Below the pieces are notes generated by a model. That model did no database searches and was not told where the DNA came from. It worked only from the letters and a program-made list of their open reading frames with translations. A program made the translations under genes and the position numbers. A stretch of DNA of 27,581 bases. Source: a virus. This document shows, piece by piece, positions 9,810-27,529 of this stretch (position 1 is its first letter; each line of letters starts with the position of its first letter). The stretch is taken from the IMG/VR virus record IMGVR_UViG_3300028025_003600, positions 1 through 27,581 of that record. The stretch is one strand, 5' to 3'.

Positions 9810-10036
9810 TTGATCAATTAAGAGAAGTCGTAGGAATGGGTGGTCCAGGTGCAGCATTGGCAAACGAGTTGCTTGTTCTTCGCGAACAATATGAAAGACA
9901 AGAAATTACACTGGAAGAATATCAATATCTTACCAATCAAATTGCTGAAGTAAGAGCTGCTCAAGAATTAAGTAGCGACGAGCAAGCATGTCGTTATATT
10001 ATTGCTGCTGCTAAAGCTCTTTCAACATTTGTGTAA
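9806..10036 (+). CDS. Small helical protein, unknown
   Basis: A 76-residue protein. The start is taken at the ATGA junction (9806) because GGAGG at 9796-9800 lies five bases before it; the ATG at 9794 has no ribosome site. A Gly/Ala-rich N-terminal segment (EVVGMGGPGAALANELL) is followed by a helical hairpin, LREQYERQEITLEEYQYLTN, that resembles SHOCT-like short motifs. It abuts the phosphoesterase gene by one shared base. Function unknown. Confidence 0.75.
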   Translation: MIDQLREVVGMGGPGAALANELLVLREQYERQEITLEEYQYLTNQIAEVRAAQELSSDEQACRYIIAAAKALSTFV

Positions 10037-10890
10037 TGAAATACCGCACGATATTCATAAGTGATGTTCACTTAGGTACTCGTGATTGTCAAGCAAACAA
10101 ATTAAATAACTTTTTAAAACATAACACCTGCGAGACTCTATATCTCGTGGGTGATATAATTGATGCTTGGAAGATCCAACAAAACAAGTGGAAATGGAAA
10201 CAGAGCCACACTAATGTTGTCCGCAGAATACTTGGTCATGCCAAGCGTGGAACTAGAGTGATATATGTTGCGGGTAATCATGATGAATTCTTAAGACCAA
10301 TGATCCCATACGGATTCTCTTTCGGTCTGATTGAAATACAAAACCAAACAGAACATGTCGGTGTAGATGGTAAACGATACCTAGTTACACATGGAGATCT
10401 ATTCGATGGTATCACTAGACTTGCTCCATGGCTTGCTTTTCTTGGCGATAAACTATACGATTTAGTTCTTGATTGGAATTCTCGATTTAATTGGATCCGT
10501 CACAAACTAGGATTTGGTTACTGGTCATTATCTAAATATCTAAAACATAAAGTAAAGAAAGCATCTGACTTTATGTTTCAATTCGAAACTAATCTTGCAA
10601 AATATTGTAAGAAGCGTGGTTTTGGTGGTGTTATCTGCGGACACATACATCATGCCGAAATAAAAGAGATTGATGGTGTTACATACATGAACGATGGAGA
10701 CTGGGTTGAGTCATGCACTGCTCTTGTTGAGCATCATGATGGACGCTGGGAAATAGTAACATGGACAAAGGAGACCGACCATGAAAGTACAGAAAATAAT
10801 AAAGAAGATGTATCAAGCATGCATCAACCACGACAAGATCAAAGAAAAGAGAATGTGGCTGAAAGCGTTGAAGAAATCATTAAAGCATAA
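10036..10890 (+). CDS. plcP: PlcP/LpxH-type metallophosphoesterase
   Basis: A 284-residue calcineurin-like phosphoesterase with all metal motifs: D10-x-H12 (SDVHLG), D40 (GDIID), N81-H82 (GNHDE), H119 (THGD) and H203-x-H205 (GHIHH). The stretches YWSLSKYLKHKVK and NDGDWVESCTALVEHHDGR match what I recall of PlcP, the phospholipase C-like enzyme of phosphate-starved proteobacteria that cuts phospholipids to diacylglycerol for glycolipid synthesis. The related LpxH (UDP-2,3-diacylglucosamine hydrolase) is the main alternative; the closeness to PlcP is from memory, not a search. A hydrophilic tail after residue 245 overlaps a second small ORF at 10781. It heads a cassette with a glycosyltransferase and a desaturase, which supports a lipid role. 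Confidence 0.86.
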   Translation: MKYRTIFISDVHLGTRDCQANKLNNFLKHNTCETLYLVGDIIDAWKIQQNKWKWKQSHTNVVRRILGHAKRGTRVIYVAGNHDEFLRPMIPYGFSFGLIEIQNQTEHVGVDGKRYLVTHGDLFDGITRLAPWLAFLGDKLYDLVLDWNSRFNWIRHKLGFGYWSLSKYLKHKVKKASDFMFQFETNLAKYCKKRGFGGVICGHIHHAEIKEIDGVTYMNDGDWVESCTALVEHHDGRWEIVTWTKETDHESTENNKEDVSSMHQPRQDQRKENVAESVEEIIKA

Positions 10891-10912
10891 AAATACAAAT
10901 GTTATTAAGTGA
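10781..10912 (+). CDS. Possible small overlapping gene, basic helical peptide
   Basis: A 43-residue ORF out of frame within the tail of the phosphoesterase gene. Its ribosome site is strong: AAAGGAG at 10767-10773, seven bases before the ATG. The product is basic and helical (MYQACINHDKIKEKRMW). It overlaps the phosphoesterase by 110 bases and the glycosyltransferase start by 14. Against it, codon use in this stretch favours the phosphoesterase frame. It could also serve as a leader coupling translation to the glycosyltransferase, which lacks its own clear ribosome site. Confidence 0.42.
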   Translation: MKVQKIIKKMYQACINHDKIKEKRMWLKALKKSLKHKNTNVIK

Positions 10913-11612
10913 TAAAATAACAATAGTTGTTCCTTGTAAAAACGAGGAAACATACATCGCGCATTTGTTAATGCATCTGCGCCAACAAGAGATAGGTAAC
11001 ACTAGAATTATTATCGCTGACTGCTCTACGGACAATACAAGACAAGTCATTGAAACAATGAAAGGTAGTCTGAATGTTGAAGTCATTGAAGGTGGACCAG
11101 TTTCTATTGCTAAAAATAATGGAGCAAAATTAGTAACAACTCCATACATTCTGTTCATTGATGCTGATGTTCGTTTCTTCAACAACAAAGTTATCCGCGA
11201 TGCAGTTGATCAATTAGAAACTAATAACTTAGATCTTGTTGGATTGTATGCAAAGTGTTATGATGATGATTACCGTGCACAAATCGGCTTTATGATTTTT
11301 AACTGTATCAACAGAATTATGCAATATACAGTACCATTCGCTGTTGGTGCTTTTATGCTAACTCGCAGAGATAGGTTTGAAGAGTTCGGCGGTTTCGCTG
11401 CAAAGTATGGAACCAGCGAAGACTTCTTTTTATCTAAACGATACGATGTTAAGAAATTTAAATTGGTGAATCACTATTTTGGACAAGACAGCAGAAGATT
11501 CCAAATAATGGGGTACTTTGGTATGGCATGGTATCTATTAAAGAACTTGTGGAACAGAAACAATGATGCATATTGGAACACGGTAGACTACTCCAAATAC
11601 TGGACTAAATAG
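10899..11612 (+). CDS. GT-A (family 2-like) glycosyltransferase
   Basis: A 237-residue glycosyltransferase with the family 2 N-terminal signature ITIVVPCKNEE, a DCSTDNT nucleotide-binding turn near 41-47, and the metal-binding D88-A-D90 (LFIDADVRFF). The later EDFFLSKR (acid plus basic pattern) resembles the ED/R-type catalytic region. A moderately hydrophobic segment around 125-150 may associate with membrane. It would transfer a sugar from a nucleotide sugar; the acceptor is unknown. Next to a PlcP-like enzyme, diacylglycerol is a plausible acceptor, though the known partner Agt belongs to a different glycosyltransferase family. No good ribosome site precedes ATG 10899, so coupling from upstream is likely. 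Confidence 0.86.
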   Translation: MLLSDKITIVVPCKNEETYIAHLLMHLRQQEIGNTRIIIADCSTDNTRQVIETMKGSLNVEVIEGGPVSIAKNNGAKLVTTPYILFIDADVRFFNNKVIRDAVDQLETNNLDLVGLYAKCYDDDYRAQIGFMIFNCINRIMQYTVPFAVGAFMLTRRDRFEEFGGFAAKYGTSEDFFLSKRYDVKKFKLVNHYFGQDSRRFQIMGYFGMAWYLLKNLWNRNNDAYWNTVDYSKYWTK

Positions 11613-11616
11613 CTAC

Positions 11617-12318
11617 ATGACACCAATATTATACACCTTAATACTAACACATATTACTATTCTTTGTGTAACAATTTATTTACACAGAGGTGTAACTCAT
11701 AGAGGGTTGGAGTTTCACCCAGCACTATCGCATTTCATGCGTTTCTGGTTGTGGCTTACAACAGGTATGGTTACCAAACAATGGGTAGCCATTCATCGCA
11801 AGCATCATAGATTTATTGACACTGATGGTGATCCACATAGTCCTAAGTTATTTGGAATTAAAAACATTGTTTTCCGTGGCGTATACTATTACTATCAAGC
11901 AGCCAAAGATGCTAGAATGATTGTTGAATATGGTGCTGGTACACCAAACGATTGGGTTGAAAGAAAAATATACACCAAACACCATTTCTTAGGTGTATTC
12001 TTAATGCTAGCAATCAATGTTTTATTATTTGGTTGGATAGGAATACTAATTTGGTTATTGCAAATTGTCTGGATTCCATTTTGGGCAGCAGGTGTGATTA
12101 ATGGACTTGGACATTGGTGGGGCTACAGCAACACAGATAATAAAGACAGTTCAAGAAACATACTTCCCTTCGGTATTTGGATTGGTGGAGAGGAACTACA
12201 CAATAACCACCACGCTGAACCAGCAAATCCTAGACTAAGTAGAAAATGGTGGGAAATAGATATCGGTTGGATTTGGATAAACATATTTAAACAATTAAGG
12301 TTATTGAAGATTCGTTAA
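11617..12318 (+). CDS. Membrane fatty acid desaturase
   Basis: A 233-residue desaturase of the acyl-CoA/acyl-lipid delta-9 type. The three histidine boxes that bind the di-iron centre are complete: H23-x4-H28 (HRGVTH), H60-x2-HH (HRKHH) and H195-x2-HH (HNNHH), with the extra INGLGHWWGY motif at 161-170. Hydrophobic segments lie at 3-22, 38-52, 125-142 and 143-162. It is shorter than bacterial homologues (often about 300 or more), lacking much of the N-terminal membrane pair and C-terminal extension, but the catalytic set is whole. It would put a double bond into host acyl chains using O2 and a host electron donor, changing membrane fluidity. Four bases separate it from the glycosyltransferase. 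Confidence 0.93.
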   Translation: MTPILYTLILTHITILCVTIYLHRGVTHRGLEFHPALSHFMRFWLWLTTGMVTKQWVAIHRKHHRFIDTDGDPHSPKLFGIKNIVFRGVYYYYQAAKDARMIVEYGAGTPNDWVERKIYTKHHFLGVFLMLAINVLLFGWIGILIWLLQIVWIPFWAAGVINGLGHWWGYSNTDNKDSSRNILPFGIWIGGEELHNNHHAEPANPRLSRKWWEIDIGWIWINIFKQLRLLKIR

Positions 12319-12333
12319 TATCATTATTTGATT

Positions 12334-12867
12334 ATGAAAATTATTATTACTGGCCATATGAATGGCATTGGAAAAGCAATCTACAACAAGTTTAGTAATT
12401 GTGGTTGGGAAGTTTCTGGCTACGATATACTAAACGATCGCAATGTAACACTCCCCCAAACTCAGAAAAATTTATTAGAAGAACTTCTAACGGCAGATGT
12501 ATTTGTAAATAATGCATTGCCATCACAAACCGAACTCCTAATTGCTACACACAAACAATGGATGACTCAACAAAAAACCATTGTAAATATTTCTAGTGCT
12601 ATAACATACATGTATGTAAACAACGATTATCCTGAATCGTTTACTGCTTACTACAATCACAAACAAACTTTAGATAATCAAACTAGAGTTTTACAAAAAC
12701 AAAACAGATACCCAAATATAATAAACTTTAGACCAGCTTGGGTTGATACACAACTAGCCGATGGTATCTATGATTTTAAAATCAAACCTGAACATCTGGC
12801 CAACCTAATTTATTTTTGTGTAGAAAACTCTGAGCATCAACAATTTTTAGATGTGGTGGTGAGATAG
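12334..12867 (+). CDS. Short-chain dehydrogenase/reductase, compact
   Basis: A 177-residue SDR; the start is ATG 12334 (a TTG at 12328 is in frame but less likely). The cofactor motif TGxxxGIG is seen as TGHMNGIG (6-13), the NNAG-like motif as VNNALP (58-63), the catalytic serine in NISSA (85-89), and Y106-x3-K110 as the catalytic pair. At 177 residues it is about 70 shorter than a usual SDR and lacks some central helices, but the NAD(P) and active-site motifs remain. Substrate unknown; the adjacent aminotransferase suggests the pair could make and aminate a ketone or aldehyde. Its stop shares a base with the next GTG. Confidence 0.84.
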   Translation: MKIIITGHMNGIGKAIYNKFSNCGWEVSGYDILNDRNVTLPQTQKNLLEELLTADVFVNNALPSQTELLIATHKQWMTQQKTIVNISSAITYMYVNNDYPESFTAYYNHKQTLDNQTRVLQKQNRYPNIINFRPAWVDTQLADGIYDFKIKPEHLANLIYFCVENSEHQQFLDVVVR

Positions 12868-14021
12868 TGGAATTAAATCAATGGTCTTTTAATGAGACGA
12901 AGAAACAAGTAGTTAAAACTGAAGGATATTGGATTTACTATTCTGATGGTAGTAGGTGTATGGATATACAGTCAGGTAACACTGCTTTTGTCTTGGGATA
13001 CTCTGATCAAGAAATTCTAAATTCAATTAGAGATAATGATATTGGATTTCTTCGTGGTAACAGTGGAGAAAGTTCTGAAGACAATGATAAACTTGTTCAG
13101 TATATTTGTCAAAGTGGTAACTGGGAATCGTTGGCTTGGGCAGTAAGTGGTAGTGATGCTGTTGAAGCAGCAATAGCCATGAATGATTGTTATTGGGAAT
13201 ACATCGGTAAACACAAGCCAAAGATTATTTCTTTCTCTCCAGGATATCACGGAACTACCATGCTCGCTAAGCATCTTCGTGGAGAATATCCTTATCTTAA
13301 TCGTGCTGAAATTATACCAGCACCAGATTGGAAATACTTGTTAGATAGAGAAGAGCAAGAAGCAATCGCATTGGCATTAGTTCATCAAAAGTTACAAACT
13401 GATACATCTATTGGTTGTATAATCATGGAAACACTTCCTTGGATGCCATCTATCAGTCCATACAGTCAGAACTGGTGGAAAACAATTAGAATGCTATGCG
13501 ATAAGTATAATGTTTTAATGATTGTTGATGATGTGGCAGTTTGTTGGGGAAAGAACGGAACTATGTTTGGATGGCAGAAATATAATGTTCAACCTGACAT
13601 ATCCTCTTTGGGTAAATCTTTGACTGCTGGTTACTCGCCACTTGGTGCTGCAGTTTGCAATAAAAAAGTAGCTGAAGTTTTAAAGTGGAAATCATGGGAG
13701 CATGGGCATACTTGGTCGCCAAACATGCATGGTGTTAGTGCTTCTTTGATAGCAACAAAACGAATAGAATCTTTACTCGATCGTGTTCCATTTATACATA
13801 ATGAACTGGTCAGGATCGCAGAAGAATTGGAACTTGTATGGAGAGGTGAGGGACTGTTTATTTGCTATGACTTCCCACGCTATATATCTCTTGCCGAGTT
13901 ATCATCAGTTGGACTTGTAGCATCAATTCCATCAACAACCTCTGTAAAAGTTATAGCACCGCTGATAGCTGACACAGAATATTTTACAAACCTAAAAACA
14001 AATTTACAAAGGATATTATGA
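12867..14021 (+). CDS. Class III PLP-dependent aminotransferase
   Basis: A 384-residue fold-type I aminotransferase of the class III group (relatives: glutamate-1-semialdehyde aminomutase, BioA, GabT). PLP features: SGSDAVEAA at 94-102, SPGYHGTT at 124-131, the ring-binding aspartate in IVDDVAVCWG near 221, and the Schiff-base lysine K250 in SSLGKSLTAGYSPLG. It starts with GTG, sharing one base with the SDR stop. Family members aminate semialdehydes or ketones, or move an amino group within a molecule; the substrate cannot be told by eye. With the SDR it may build an amino sugar or amino alcohol for a glycolipid or LPS head group, as inference. It ends at an ATGA junction. Confidence 0.92.
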   Translation: MELNQWSFNETKKQVVKTEGYWIYYSDGSRCMDIQSGNTAFVLGYSDQEILNSIRDNDIGFLRGNSGESSEDNDKLVQYICQSGNWESLAWAVSGSDAVEAAIAMNDCYWEYIGKHKPKIISFSPGYHGTTMLAKHLRGEYPYLNRAEIIPAPDWKYLLDREEQEAIALALVHQKLQTDTSIGCIIMETLPWMPSISPYSQNWWKTIRMLCDKYNVLMIVDDVAVCWGKNGTMFGWQKYNVQPDISSLGKSLTAGYSPLGAAVCNKKVAEVLKWKSWEHGHTWSPNMHGVSASLIATKRIESLLDRVPFIHNELVRIAEELELVWRGEGLFICYDFPRYISLAELSSVGLVASIPSTTSVKVIAPLIADTEYFTNLKTNLQRIL

Positions 14022-14197
14022 ACAAACCTGATAAAAACTTTAAATTGAGCAAAACTTCTAAGAGGATTCTTGCATCAATTAAGGATAGTTCTCTCGCTTC
14101 ATCGTGGAAACGCATGATGATTGATGCTGAGATGGAGTCTAAAAAGCCACCTCCAAAACAAGAAAAGGGATTCAAAAAGGATACCCCTACAACTTAA
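14018..14197 (+). CDS. Small basic conserved phage protein
   Basis: A 59-residue lysine-rich ORF starting at the ATGA junction with the aminotransferase, with AAAGGAT just upstream. Sequence such as KLSKTSKRILASIKDSS and SWKRMMIDAEME is helical and basic, followed by a Pro/Lys tail. I recall similar small proteins in aquatic T4-like phages, function unknown; nucleic-acid binding is possible from charge alone. It is the last gene of its unit, before a strong terminator. Confidence 0.72.
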   Translation: MNKPDKNFKLSKTSKRILASIKDSSLASSWKRMMIDAEMESKKPPPKQEKGFKKDTPTT

Positions 14198-14220
14198 AGG
14201 GTTATTACCCATCCTGCAAG

Positions 14221-14242
14221 CCCCACCCAGCGTGGGGTTTTT
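14221..14242 (+). terminator. Rho-independent terminator
   Basis: CCCCAC (14221-14226), a CCAGC loop and GTGGGG (14232-14237) form a perfect six-pair G-C-rich stem followed directly by five T. It ends the lipid/aminotransferase unit and stands just before the first early promoter. Confidence 0.92.
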
Positions 14243-14257
14243 CATTGATTAAAATAC

Positions 14258-14286
14258 TTGCTATTAATTCAGAAATAGAGTATAAT
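14258..14286 (+). promoter_or_regulatory. Sigma70-type early promoter
   Basis: TTGCTA and TATAAT are separated by 17 bases (TTAATTCAGAAATAGAG). The spacer resembles those of the other four promoters in this window. Transcription would start near 14293 and run through the GP88-like, HNH and ligase genes. Confidence 0.85.
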
Positions 14287-14319
14287 AGTTATATTGAGTT
14301 GATAAAGCAAGGACTAATT

Positions 14320-15003
14320 ATGAAACTATTTACGACTGGTAACCCAAAATTGATGAAGGGCGAGAAGAAAGGATATTTGTCCTTTGTTTTACACTTGGCA
14401 CCTGCTGATGTTTCAGGTTATAATACATGTCCCAAAGCGACTGCTGGTTGCAAGAAAGCATGTTTGAACACTGCTGGTCGTGGTGGTATTTTCAAGAAAG
14501 GCGAAACTACTAATGTGATTCAACAAGCTCGCATTCGTAAGACAAAAGAATTCTTTGAAAATCGTGAGCAATTTTTGCAAGACTTGCGTAAAGATATTCA
14601 GCTGGCAATCAAACAAGCAGAAAAGAAAGGGTTGACCCCTGCATTTCGTTTGAATGGCACCAGCGATATTTCTTGGGAGAAGTATGGTATTATTGAAGAA
14701 TTCCCAAATGTGCAGTTCTATGACTATACCAAAGTGCGTAATCGTAAAGTGTCACACTTGAAGAACTATCATCTCACCTTCTCTAAGGCAGATGGCAACG
14801 ACAGCGATGTTGAGAAAGTTGTATCTCAGGGTATGAATGTTGCTGCTGTTTTTGCAAAAGTGCCAGAAACATATCTCGGTCGCAAGGTAATTAATGGTGA
14901 CGAAACCGACTTGCGATTTCTTGATGCGAAAAATGTTATTGTTGGTTTGAAAGCCAAAGGTAAAGCCAAGAAAGACACAACTGGTTTCGTGGTGATGTCA
15001 TAA
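14320..15003 (+). CDS. GP88-family phage protein with cysteine cluster
   Basis: A 227-residue protein; the start is ATG 14320 with AAGGA at 14309-14313, downstream of the promoter (an in-frame TTG at 14245 lies before the promoter and is rejected). The N-terminal part has HLAPADVSGYNTCPKA and KACLNTAGRGGIF, the hallmark of the phage 'gene product 88' family, with C37, C44 and C48 close together. Such a cluster could bind a metal or Fe-S centre, which is not established. Later segments (FRLNGTSDISWEKYG, FYDYTKV) look like a TIM-barrel-type repeat of strands. The biological role of the family is unknown to me. The stop overlaps the HNH gene start (TAATG). Confidence 0.85.
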   Translation: MKLFTTGNPKLMKGEKKGYLSFVLHLAPADVSGYNTCPKATAGCKKACLNTAGRGGIFKKGETTNVIQQARIRKTKEFFENREQFLQDLRKDIQLAIKQAEKKGLTPAFRLNGTSDISWEKYGIIEEFPNVQFYDYTKVRNRKVSHLKNYHLTFSKADGNDSDVEKVVSQGMNVAAVFAKVPETYLGRKVINGDETDLRFLDAKNVIVGLKAKGKAKKDTTGFVVMS

Positions 15004-20754: not shown

Positions 20755-20943
20755 ATGGGTAAAATATTATTGGCTCTCTTGGTTATTGTTGCATTTTTGG
20801 TGTTAATACCAATTGCTACAATCTGGTCTCTTAATACATTATTCCCTGTTTTGGCAATTCCATTAACATTGGATACTTGGATGGCTGCAGTGGTTTTGGG
20901 TGGTGTAGTCGGTGGAACAACTGCAGTAACTTTTAAAAAATAA
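20755..20943 (+). CDS. Small two-span membrane protein
   Basis: A 62-residue hydrophobic protein with two membrane helices, about 3-27 (ILLALLVIVAFLVLIPIATIW) and 38-57 (AIPLTLDTWMAAVVLGGVVGG). It ends VTFKK. Small proteins of this type are frequent in aquatic T4-like phages; role unknown. It shares its stop base with the next start (TAATG). Confidence 0.75.
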   Translation: MGKILLALLVIVAFLVLIPIATIWSLNTLFPVLAIPLTLDTWMAAVVLGGVVGGTTAVTFKK

Positions 20944-21599
20944 TGAAATCAGTGAAAGACTCAATAATTGTTCTAGACGATCTTGTTCCTAAACATGTTC
21001 AGGATTCATTAGAACAATTGTGTATGTCTGGACATTTTCCATGGTATTTTAATCAATCTTCCAACTATACTTCTAAGTCTAATAGAAATAACAGTATAGA
21101 AGATTATACTAAGATGTCAGAAATATCTTCTGGCATTGATGTTCCACAATTCATACACAGTGTATATCACCACCAGCATCAAAAAGACTCGCAGTTTCTT
21201 GTTGCATTTAATTCTCTACTGTGTTGTATCCCTGCTAGCATTGATACACTATTAAGAATTAAATTGAATCTTAATTATTCTCAAACATTTGATACAACGG
21301 AAACATATAGTATCCCGCATGTTGATTTTGTTTCTGTCGATAACTTGACAACTTTAATATATTATGTAAATGATAGCGATGGTGATACCATAATCTTTAA
21401 CGAAAAGAGATCCACTGGAGATTTACCGAACTGTGATAAATTGACAATCAAACAAAGAATCACACCCAAGAAAGGTAGATTTGTCATGTTTGATGGTTCT
21501 TATTTACATGCAGGCAATTTCCCCTCTGGTGAATCACCAAGAATTGTTGTAAATATCAATATCATTCCCCACAAAGTCTTTACAGTCGTTGAAAAATAA
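20943..21599 (+). CDS. 2OG-Fe(II) oxygenase-like protein
   Basis: A 218-residue protein of the 2-oxoglutarate/Fe(II) dioxygenase superfamily. The iron triad is visible: H-x-D in IPHVDFVS (about 137-139) and the distal histidine in GSYLHAGNFP, followed by the 2OG-binding arginine in SPRIVVNINI. Strands such as LTTLIYYVNDSDG and GRFVMFDG frame the barrel. Phage members can hydroxylate proteins, nucleobases or small molecules; the substrate is not evident. It is the last gene before the 21626 promoter. Confidence 0.87.
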   Translation: MKSVKDSIIVLDDLVPKHVQDSLEQLCMSGHFPWYFNQSSNYTSKSNRNNSIEDYTKMSEISSGIDVPQFIHSVYHHQHQKDSQFLVAFNSLLCCIPASIDTLLRIKLNLNYSQTFDTTETYSIPHVDFVSVDNLTTLIYYVNDSDGDTIIFNEKRSTGDLPNCDKLTIKQRITPKKGRFVMFDGSYLHAGNFPSGESPRIVVNINIIPHKVFTVVEK

Positions 21600-25551: not shown

Positions 25552-25979
25552 TGAAACAAAAGTGGGTTGCTGCTTTTATGGACACAGCTGAGAGATTTGC
25601 TCAGTTGAGTTCAGCAAAAAGATTGCAGGTAGGTGCAGTTGTAGTCAAGGATAATAGGATTATTTCTATTGGTTACAATGGTATGCCTGCTGGTTGGACA
25701 AACGAATGTGAAGAAGTTATACAGTTGTCAGATGACACTGTTGAATTGAAAACGAAAGATGAGGTAATTCATGCTGAAGCAAATGCTATACTCAAGTTGG
25801 CTCGTGATGGCGAATCAGGCAATGGTTCCAGTTTATTCTGTACTCATTCTCCTTGCATTCACTGTGCTAAATTGATTCACGGAGTAGGTATATATAAAGT
25901 GTACTATCGTCAGTCCTATCGCGACAATGACGGAATTGATTTTTTACAAAAATGTAATATAGAGGTGGAGCAAGTATGA
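25551..25979 (+). CDS. dCMP deaminase
   Basis: A 142-residue zinc deaminase converting dCMP to dUMP for dTMP synthesis. The zinc site is H74-A-E76 (VIHAEANAI) and C102-x2-C105 (SPCIHCAKL); the N-terminal RLQVGAVVVKDNRIISIGYNG (quoted as region 24-44) matches ComEB/T4 cd-type enzymes. ATG 25551 overlaps the previous stop; an in-frame TTG at 25548 is less likely. It is shorter than T4 Cd (about 190), nearer to bacterial ComEB-like forms. It agrees with the ribonucleotide reductase and MazG-like genes as a nucleotide pathway. Confidence 0.93.
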   Translation: MKQKWVAAFMDTAERFAQLSSAKRLQVGAVVVKDNRIISIGYNGMPAGWTNECEEVIQLSDDTVELKTKDEVIHAEANAILKLARDGESGNGSSLFCTHSPCIHCAKLIHGVGIYKVYYRQSYRDNDGIDFLQKCNIEVEQV

Positions 25980-26551
25980 ATGAGCGATTAGATCTTACTG
26001 AAATGTTTACTTCGTTTTATGTTACAACACAATTATCATTGGATAATGAGAAGCTGAAGAAATTATGTATGGAACTTGTTCCAGATGTAAACAAAAACAG
26101 TGGTATGTTGGACATAAATCATGAAGGATTCGCAGAACTAAGATCTAAGGTTGTTGAGAAAACAAACATCATTCATAATAAACTTGGATTGTCTTCGTCG
26201 CATAAGCAAGAAATATGGAGATATTGGGTAAATTTGGATAGAGCATGGGCAGCAATGGAACCACACTGTCATCCTGATGGATTTTTCTCTGCTGTTTACT
26301 ATCCATCGGCAGAGAATGATAGTAAATTGAAGTTTATGAATCCTGTCAGAGAAATTCCCATTGTTGTTAAGAGAGAATTTGTTTCTCAGGGTAACAAGTA
26401 TTGGTCTCATGGGTGGGGTGTAACACCAACTGCTGGGATGTTGGTAATCTTTCCATCTTGGATATATCACTACATTGAGAATGAGAATTATAAAAACACA
26501 GGCGATAGAATTTCTATTGCTTTTGATACAAGAATTGTTGAAAACATTTGA
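25976..26551 (+). CDS. 2OG-Fe(II) oxygenase-like protein (second)
   Basis: A 191-residue protein of the phage 2OG-Fe(II) oxygenase type. HCHPDGFFSAVYYP (about 97-110) provides the H-x-D/H-x-P-x region, GMLVIFPSWIYHYIE the distal histidine, and DRISIAFDTRI the 2OG-binding arginine and last strand. WRYWVNLDRAWAAMEPHCHP is the usual approach segment of the TIGR02466-like group, quoted as a region. Substrate unknown. It is a different subfamily from the protein at 20943. Start at ATGA junction 25976. Confidence 0.87.
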   Translation: MNERLDLTEMFTSFYVTTQLSLDNEKLKKLCMELVPDVNKNSGMLDINHEGFAELRSKVVEKTNIIHNKLGLSSSHKQEIWRYWVNLDRAWAAMEPHCHPDGFFSAVYYPSAENDSKLKFMNPVREIPIVVKREFVSQGNKYWSHGWGVTPTAGMLVIFPSWIYHYIENENYKNTGDRISIAFDTRIVENI

Positions 26552-26776: not shown

Positions 26777-26851
26777 GCTCGGCTCGTCTATCGGTTAGGA
26801 CACTGCCCTTTCACGGCAGGAAGACCAGTTCGATTCTGGTGCCGAGTGCCA
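26777..26851 (+). tRNA. tRNA-Glu (anticodon TTC)
   Basis: Acceptor GCTCGGC pairs with GCCGAGT (one G-T at the end), anticodon stem CTGCC/GGCAG with loop CTTTCAC (anticodon at 26810-26812), T arm CCAG-TTCGATT-CTGG, discriminator G and encoded CCA. Its last six bases are the first part of a 22-base inverted repeat reaching 26867. Confidence 0.95.
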
Positions 26852-27003
26852 TTTGTTTAGTGCTATCAAGGTATCGTCATAGGACGCTATGACTATGCGG
26901 GTCCAACTGGCGAGGGACGGATCCTAATATAACTGCTTAGTCGCTATGGCACAGAATCGAACTGGACGCCTAAATCGAGCAGATAGCACTAAACAAATGG
27001 CAC
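26852..27003 (+). ncRNA. Structured non-coding segment A in tRNA cluster
   Basis: No gene-like ORF. A perfect 22-base inverted repeat (26846-26867 with 26982-27003) would close it. Inside are hairpin GTCATAG/CTATGAC (26876-26893), GGGTCC/GGATCC (near 26900 and 26917, with one G-U), and CTGC-TTAG (26931) pairing with CTAA and GCAG (ending 26981). This gives a multi-branched, roughly cloverleaf-shaped fold. The part at 26952-26965 is the exact reverse complement of the tRNA-Glu T arm. T4 encodes two stable RNAs (C and D) among its tRNAs; this could be an analogue, but no sequence match is claimed. Strand is taken from the tRNAs; because of the symmetry the minus strand also folds. Confidence 0.6.
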
Positions 27004-27022
27004 CCATGCAAGTGCGCAAGGT

Positions 27023-27055
27023 TTGGTAGTTTTCCTTTTATCCAAAAACTACCAA
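27023..27055 (+). terminator. 11-bp hairpin between segment A and tRNA-His
   Basis: TTGGTAGTTTT (27023-27033) and AAAACTACCAA (27045-27055) pair perfectly around an 11-base loop. A T5 run follows four bases later. It may terminate transcription or be a processing signal. Confidence 0.55.
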
Positions 27056-27067
27056 GATGTTTTTGGT

Positions 27068-27141
27068 GTGACTATGTTGTAATGGTAGCAACGCAGATTG
27101 TGATTCTGCTAGTCTGGGTTCAACTCCCAGTAGTCACCCCA
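27068..27141 (+). tRNA. tRNA-His (anticodon GTG)
   Basis: Acceptor GTGACTA/TAGTCAC, D stem TTGT/GCAA, anticodon stem GCAGA/TCTGC with loop TTGTGAT (anticodon 27100-27102), T arm with GGTTCAACTCC, discriminator C and encoded CCA. The base before position 1 is T, so the usual encoded extra G of bacterial tRNA-His is missing by this folding. Confidence 0.93.
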
Positions 27142-27150
27142 AAAGTATTT

Positions 27151-27234
27151 GGAGAATGAGCAGCATTGGCGACTGCAGCAGACTGTAAATCTGTGTCCTC
27201 TGGAAACTTGGTTCGACTCCAAGATTCTCCACCA
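27151..27234 (+). tRNA. tRNA-Tyr (anticodon GTA)
   Basis: Acceptor GGAGAAT/ATTCTCC, anticodon stem GCAGA/TCTGT with loop CTGTAAA (anticodon 27185-27187), a long variable arm as expected for bacterial tRNA-Tyr, T loop GTTCGACTC, discriminator A and encoded CCA. Confidence 0.94.
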
Positions 27235-27239
27235 AATCT

Positions 27240-27450
27240 CGACAGCTACTAGCGTGATAGTAGTCGCATACTCAGCGTCACGAGTCGGGGGTGGTCAACC
27301 GTAAAGAAGAGTGCCCAGTAACATCCAGGAATGTTACATATAAGGGAGTCCGAACCACTGAATAGAACTGTAACTATTAAGAGATCAAAACACAGTGACA
27401 GAGTGTGCAACTCAAGTAAGGGCGATGTGGAAGTCGTAGCTTACACCAAA
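27240..27450 (+). ncRNA. Structured non-coding segment B in tRNA cluster
   Basis: About 210 bases without a gene-like ORF between tRNA-Tyr and tRNA-Asp. Perfect short helices: CTACTA/TAGTAG (27246-27263), GTAACAT/ATGTTAC (27318-27337) enclosed by GTGGT/ACCAC (27291-27295 with 27354-27358), AATAG/CTATT (27361-27378), CACA/TGTG (27391-27407) and GTAAG/CTTAC (27416-27444). It is richer in G+C than the flanking protein genes, as expected of a folded RNA. It may be a stable phage RNA comparable in position to T4 RNAs C/D, or part of a larger ornate RNA such as GOLLD; no consensus match could be tested. Confidence 0.58.
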
Positions 27451-27454
27451 TTTA

Positions 27455-27529
27455 GGCTCGTTAGTATAATGGTCATTACAGCGGATTGTCTATCCGCTTA
27501 TGGGAGTTCGATTCTCCCACGAGTCGCCA
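27455..27529 (+). tRNA. tRNA-Asp (anticodon GTC)
   Basis: Acceptor GGCTCGT/ACGAGTC with one G-T, anticodon stem GCGGA/TCCGC with loop TTGTCTA (anticodon 27488-27490), T arm GGGAG-TTCGATT-CTCCC, discriminator G and encoded CCA. Confidence 0.95.

Follow-up and report, generated by a model that had tools for sequence, protein, structure and literature searches.

Phage DNA contains much phosphate, phosphate limits many aquatic hosts, and phosphate-uptake genes are known in phages. The locus described here raises the question of whether a phage might also draw on the membrane phospholipids of its host. It lies in a 27.6-kb IMG/VR virus record (the window, meaning the whole stretch of DNA that was analysed), which carries phage replication genes identified by profile matches: ribonucleotide reductase, T4-type RNase H, ATP-dependent ligase and an endonuclease VII-like protein. 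The original prediction held that five enzyme genes in this record form one lipid-remodelling cassette.

Layout and boundaries of the unit

The five enzyme ORFs, encoding a PlcP-type phosphoesterase, a GT2 glycosyltransferase, a fatty acid desaturase, a short-chain dehydrogenase/reductase (SDR) and an aminotransferase, are open, intact and collinear on the (+) strand, with intergenic gaps of 8, 4, 9 and -1 bp. The predicted tight unit of intact, co-directional genes is therefore present, and profile searches and motif inspection agree with the families and catalytic motifs proposed for all five enzymes. When compared with the sole other contig carrying the full set, dN/dS is 0.08-0.15 across the five genes. 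The unit is longer than five genes: a 59-aa ORF (14018..14197, +) overlaps the end of the aminotransferase gene by 4 bp, and the unit ends at an intrinsic terminator (about 14218..14242, +), a GC-rich hairpin with a T run after it (-19.3 kcal/mol and z -2.8 for the fold of 14195-14250).

In the window, no Pho box site above chance was found, and a phage gene need not have one. Near the unit, there is no T4-type late promoter, and sigma-70-like sites occur at chance level only. The terminator lies just 5' of the listed start of a GP88 ORF (14245-15003), for which the start is probably the ATG near 14320 (MKLFTTGN) and not the listed TTG. Outside the unit, the window also contains two 2OG-Fe(II) oxygenase-family genes (20943-21599 and 25976-26551) and four tRNA genes (Glu, His, Tyr and Asp; 26777-27529).

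The phosphoesterase and its glycosyltransferase partner

The phosphoesterase (10036..10890, +; 284 aa) matches Metallophos of Pfam (E 1e-10) and bears the metal motifs DVH, GDxxD, GNHD, HGD and GHIHH; the calcineurin-like pattern (D-H / GDxxD / GNHD / H / GHxH) is invariant in alignments. A tree of 56 rows was built from the window protein, viral relatives, 27 cellular PlcPs, and E. coli LpxH with ten other LpxH proteins. A branch with 100/100 support parts the 11 LpxH references from the window protein, its viral relatives and the 27 cellular PlcPs, consistent with the grouping originally proposed. All 11 LpxH references have GNRD, whereas GNHD is found on the PlcP side of the tree with S-SRM01 as the sole exception, and the window protein scores 37.2 bits against the LpxH model TIGR01854, far below the cut-off of 190.35. 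Identity as LpxH is ruled out by the tree, the GNHD motif and this score; by sequence, the protein belongs to the PlcP family, and we infer that it acts as a phospholipase C on membrane phospholipids. A true LpxH above the cut-off also occurs in 10 of 17 genomes picked for carrying PlcP; therefore, the two are distinct genes within one cell. LpxH structures are the closest folds to the structure model (pLDDT 77), but confidence in this model is low for its helical insert and tail, and thus these matches mean only that the proteins share a superfamily.

At least 598 viral PlcP matches were found. Identity to the window PlcP is 79-94% for the best 80 viral proteins and at most 61% for cellular ones, suggesting that the viral proteins form an established branch and were not recently captured from a host. 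A PlcP homologue of 44% identity occurs in MT836169.1, an unverified 'Bacteriophage sp.' record of human faecal origin that may be bacterial DNA.

The glycosyltransferase (10899..11612, +; 237 aa) matches Glycos_transf_2 (PF00535, E 2e-19). Its residues D41, DxD 88-90, ED 174-175 and QDxRR 196-200 are invariant in 34 viral homologues, except for one row at D175, and its structure model (pLDDT 89) adopts a GT-A fold, for which many GT2 enzymes are structural neighbours. Membership of Agt is ruled out, as the protein is a PF00535 GT2 with a GT-A fold, not a GT4 with a GT-B fold. Structure prediction, suggested earlier as a route to relatives that use diacylglycerol as acceptor, yielded this fold, but neither structure nor sequence fixes diacylglycerol as the acceptor; enzymes of the GT2 family act on many acceptors. 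The analysis gave no sign that the protein groups with known glycosyltransferases by which phages modify DNA or LPS. Of 399 Pseudomonadota genomes, 7 hold relatives at E <= 1e-20. In six of these seven (L361-L366; E 1e-28 to 1e-34), the gene, as read by eye, apparently adjoins one for a DedA-like membrane protein that carries a domain at its C-terminus; this unstudied neighbourhood may hint that the acceptor is a lipid.

Gene order offers a reading of the acceptor. The viral loci analysed are the best 80 matches per scan, not a random sample, and the contigs are mostly fragments. ORFs were called and clustered in 80 PlcP-seeded viral loci; 67 were left after removal of duplicate PlcPs, five of them lying at the edge of a contig. 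Of the 62 deduplicated loci with room, 61 have a glycosyltransferase gene next to PlcP or one gene further on, and sequence clustering assigns 38 of these enzymes to GT4 (Agt-like) and 23 to GT2. Conversely, PlcP is directly upstream in 67 of 75 GT2-seeded viral loci, with four lacking room and four lacking PlcP. In three contexts of the viral PlcP loci (clusters 17, 35 and 59), GT2 and GT4 are followed by genes of common families; as judged from this gene order, their exchange is a non-homologous replacement at one site. The viral GT4 groups with cellular PlcP-adjacent GT4 with 100/100 support against other GT4 proteins, and such a GT4 gene is next to PlcP in 54 of 80 cellular PlcP loci, including two SAR11 genomes. 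For the SAR11 GT4, diacylglycerol is a proven acceptor, and the enzyme makes glycosyl-diacylglycerols (PMC8231724). Because GT2 and GT4 swap at one site beside common downstream families, GT2 is probably a stand-in for Agt and, in this context, is best read as a substitute with the same diacylglycerol acceptor.

PlcP has other neighbours as well. A few other cellular PlcPs adjoin, as read by eye, MGDG-synthase-like (GT28) or GT21-like proteins, in line with the variety of PlcP contexts reported from marine bacteria (PMC4796936), and the PlcPs of phages Mosig and S-SRM01 have no adjacent glycosyltransferase. A glutamine-amidotransferase-like protein of about 216 aa (read by eye; cluster 17; L010, L012, L016, L025 and others) follows PlcP-GT4 in 12 deduplicated loci and PlcP-GT2 in one. 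In L052 and L076, a RimK-like ATP-grasp protein of about 300 aa (read by eye; cluster 94) is encoded between PlcP and GT4.

These data also bear on a reading in which the cell surface is the target: the phosphoesterase would act on a lipid A precursor and the glycosyltransferase on LPS or undecaprenyl phosphate, blocking superinfection. The weak GtrB-like PHROG match of the glycosyltransferase (2e-7), the LPS-modifying role given to pelagimyophage glycosyltransferases (PMC7029224), the placing of viral lpxH under LPS biosynthesis in surveys and the LpxH folds closest to the phosphoesterase would be in keeping with it. Surface modification is nevertheless unlikely, given that tree, motif and cut-off all set the phosphoesterase apart from LpxH and that GT2 swaps with a GT4 of the Agt clade at one site. 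The proposal that PlcP and a glycosyltransferase form a glycolipid module has, by contrast, strong support: the gene order holds across about 60 distinct viral PlcP loci, and GT2 exchanges with Agt-like GT4.

A mobile desaturase and a rare gene pair

The desaturase (11617..12318, +; 233 aa) matches FA_desaturase (PF00487, E 6e-17) and the DesA-family model NF049918 (E 2e-114; 382.9 bits against a curated cut-off of 400), and has all three histidine boxes (HRGVTH, HRKHH and HNNHH). It covers positions 11-240 of the 385 in NF049918 and is therefore a short form, compared with about 400 aa in cells. It is 53-58% identical to Methylophilaceae enzymes, and nrdB of the window shows 62% identity to that of an Alcaligenes phage; these similarities only hint at a Pseudomonadota host. 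Among sequenced phages, neither desaturase relatives nor DNA near-identical to the window were found. In viral contigs the desaturase is very common, with matches confirmed in at least 596.

In 53 of the best 80 desaturase-seeded viral loci, no relative of PlcP, the glycosyltransferase or nrdB was found in the stretch examined. Yet the desaturase gene is close to PlcP or the glycosyltransferase gene in the window and in L166, L046, L080, L207, L292, L312 and L320, in several arrangements and in divergent phages. It thus appears to be a frequent, independent phage gene that joined the PlcP-glycosyltransferase pair more than once. Its proposed part in a lipid-remodelling programme is plausible, although most viral copies have no PlcP seen nearby.

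The SDR (12328..12867, +; 179 aa) is a short form that matches adh_short (PF00106) at E 6e-6, with 26.2 bits against a cut-off of 26.6, and carries TGHMNGIG, NNA at 61-63, SS at 89-90 and YYNHK; its start may be ATG 12334 rather than TTG 12328. The class III PLP aminotransferase (12867..14021, +; 384 aa) matches Aminotran_3 (PF00202) at E 9e-42, with 143.6 bits against a cut-off of 30.5, and its PLP lysine is K250 in SLGK. In a sequence scan that finds close relatives only, both genes were recovered from a single further contig, IMGVR_UViG_3300032323_001614, where their order is the same, with 96% identity and dN/dS of 0.15 for the SDR and 98% and 0.08 for the aminotransferase. Given this syntenic second copy and its low dN/dS, an assembly artefact is less likely, and selection is evident. 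No class III enzymes stand out as nearer kin of the aminotransferase, which is 24-34% identical to the class at large, and in 399 Pseudomonadota genomes no source was found at E <= 1e-40, the best match being near 1e-30. An SDR of 29% identity occurs in L072, which has no aminotransferase, and sequenced phages yielded no SDR relatives. Neither this distribution nor the sequence similarities point to a substrate, or to the amino-sugar or amino-alcohol head group originally suggested as a product of the two enzymes.

None of the findings that the original prediction had named as refuting it was obtained. The gene-order search in viral metagenomes that it had called for gave a divided result, as the PlcP-glycosyltransferase core is conserved but the five-gene set recurs in only one other contig. 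Among the viral loci sampled, the whole set is rare, and the SDR and aminotransferase genes are a rare add-on to the core. We read the locus less as a single cassette than as a conserved core of two genes joined by one mobile partner and by a rare pair.

Whether the five genes serve a single pathway at all is, in our judgement, evenly balanced against an alternative in which a functional PlcP-glycosyltransferase pair merely has unrelated metabolic genes as neighbours, the stretch from the PlcP-glycosyltransferase site to GP88 being a variable region. GP88 directly follows GT2 in L077 and L079, the desaturase is mostly elsewhere and often beside nrdB, and the SDR and aminotransferase are confined to two contigs, which all fit a variable region. 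The recurrent desaturase adjacency in divergent phages points the other way, as does the co-directional, nearly gapless arrangement of five genes with one shared terminator. A stronger proposal is very unlikely: a phage-owned GT-A diacylglycerol glycosyltransferase would replace Agt and, together with the other three enzymes (desaturase, SDR and aminotransferase), would produce an unsaturated glycolipid whose amino-modified head group is new to bacteria, while host phosphate is freed for phage DNA.

Proposed role and relation to known systems

We favour, with a probability of roughly two in three, the reading that PlcP-GT2 is a phage lipid-remodelling pair, with the desaturase working on the same membrane and phosphate passing to phage DNA; its substrates, products and benefit are what we infer. 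What the data show is membership of the PlcP family, the gene pairing, the glycosyltransferase swap and purifying selection. PlcP would cleave host phospholipids into diacylglycerol and a phosphorylated head group, and the adjacent GT2 would glycosylate diacylglycerol to a phosphorus-free glycolipid, in the role that the GT4 Agt has in bacteria and, by homology, in sister phages. The desaturase probably alters acyl chains of the same membrane. The released phosphate would feed phage DNA synthesis, and the glycolipid would preserve membrane integrity.

Salvage of phosphate is a plausible purpose. Cellular PlcP acts in phosphate starvation (PMC4796936), PlcP adjoins a phosphate ABC transporter gene in pelagiphage Mosig, and relatives of that transporter protein are encoded near PlcP in three Caulobacteraceae loci, all of which support a phosphate role circumstantially. 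Remodelling might instead lack a phosphate motive, with head groups and saturation tuning membrane curvature, charge or permeability, for example in lysis timing or phage exclusion. Such tuning is possible, if on balance somewhat improbable: the unit includes a desaturase, which is unrelated to phosphate and adjoins PlcP-glycosyltransferase genes in several divergent phages, and the window has no detected Pho box, but the starvation role of cellular PlcP (PMC4796936) and the transporter gene beside PlcP in Mosig weigh against it.

No report of a phage PlcP or a phage glycolipid module was found in the open-access literature searched, and novelty is accordingly provisional; within that literature, the mining of host membrane phospholipids by a phage is apparently an undescribed route. 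With at least 598 viral PlcP matches, the PlcP-glycosyltransferase pair is common enough to matter.

The nearest known system is bacterial PlcP-Agt, the lipid-remodelling route of SAR11 (PMC8231724, PMC4796936). As in Phaeobacter PlcP, SAR11 PlcP-Agt/GTcp and Agrobacterium Agt, the window combines the PlcP family with a glycosyltransferase directly after it, and sister phages carry the Agt-type GT4 itself. The window differs in being viral, in having a GT2 (GT-A) instead of a GT4 (GT-B), in continuing with desaturase, SDR and aminotransferase genes and in the absence of a detectable Pho box. Among phages, Pelagibacter phage Mosig EXVC030M encodes a PlcP homologue (Mosig_00120) that is 49% identical to that of the window and is annotated as a UDP-2,3-diacylglucosamine hydrolase; unlike the window gene, it has no adjacent glycosyltransferase, and the tree groups it with Hyphomonas/Hellea PlcP and not with the window's branch. 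Among phage-borne fatty acid desaturases, lipid desaturases have been described in cyanophages (Roitman et al., 2018, cited in PMC11480375) and a stearoyl-CoA desaturase in putative Fonsibacter myophages (PMC7029224); PlcP is absent from those reports, whereas the window has a short DesA-family form beside PlcP-glycosyltransferase. Stearoyl-CoA desaturase is also among viral-fraction transcripts of Lake Baikal (PMC9611531). Surveys of auxiliary metabolic genes list viral lpxH and assign it to LPS biosynthesis (PMC10653327, PMC9611531). KEGG-style annotation would name a PlcP of the window type lpxH, and some or all of these entries may be PlcP; viral 'lpxH' in auxiliary metabolic gene tables should therefore be re-read.
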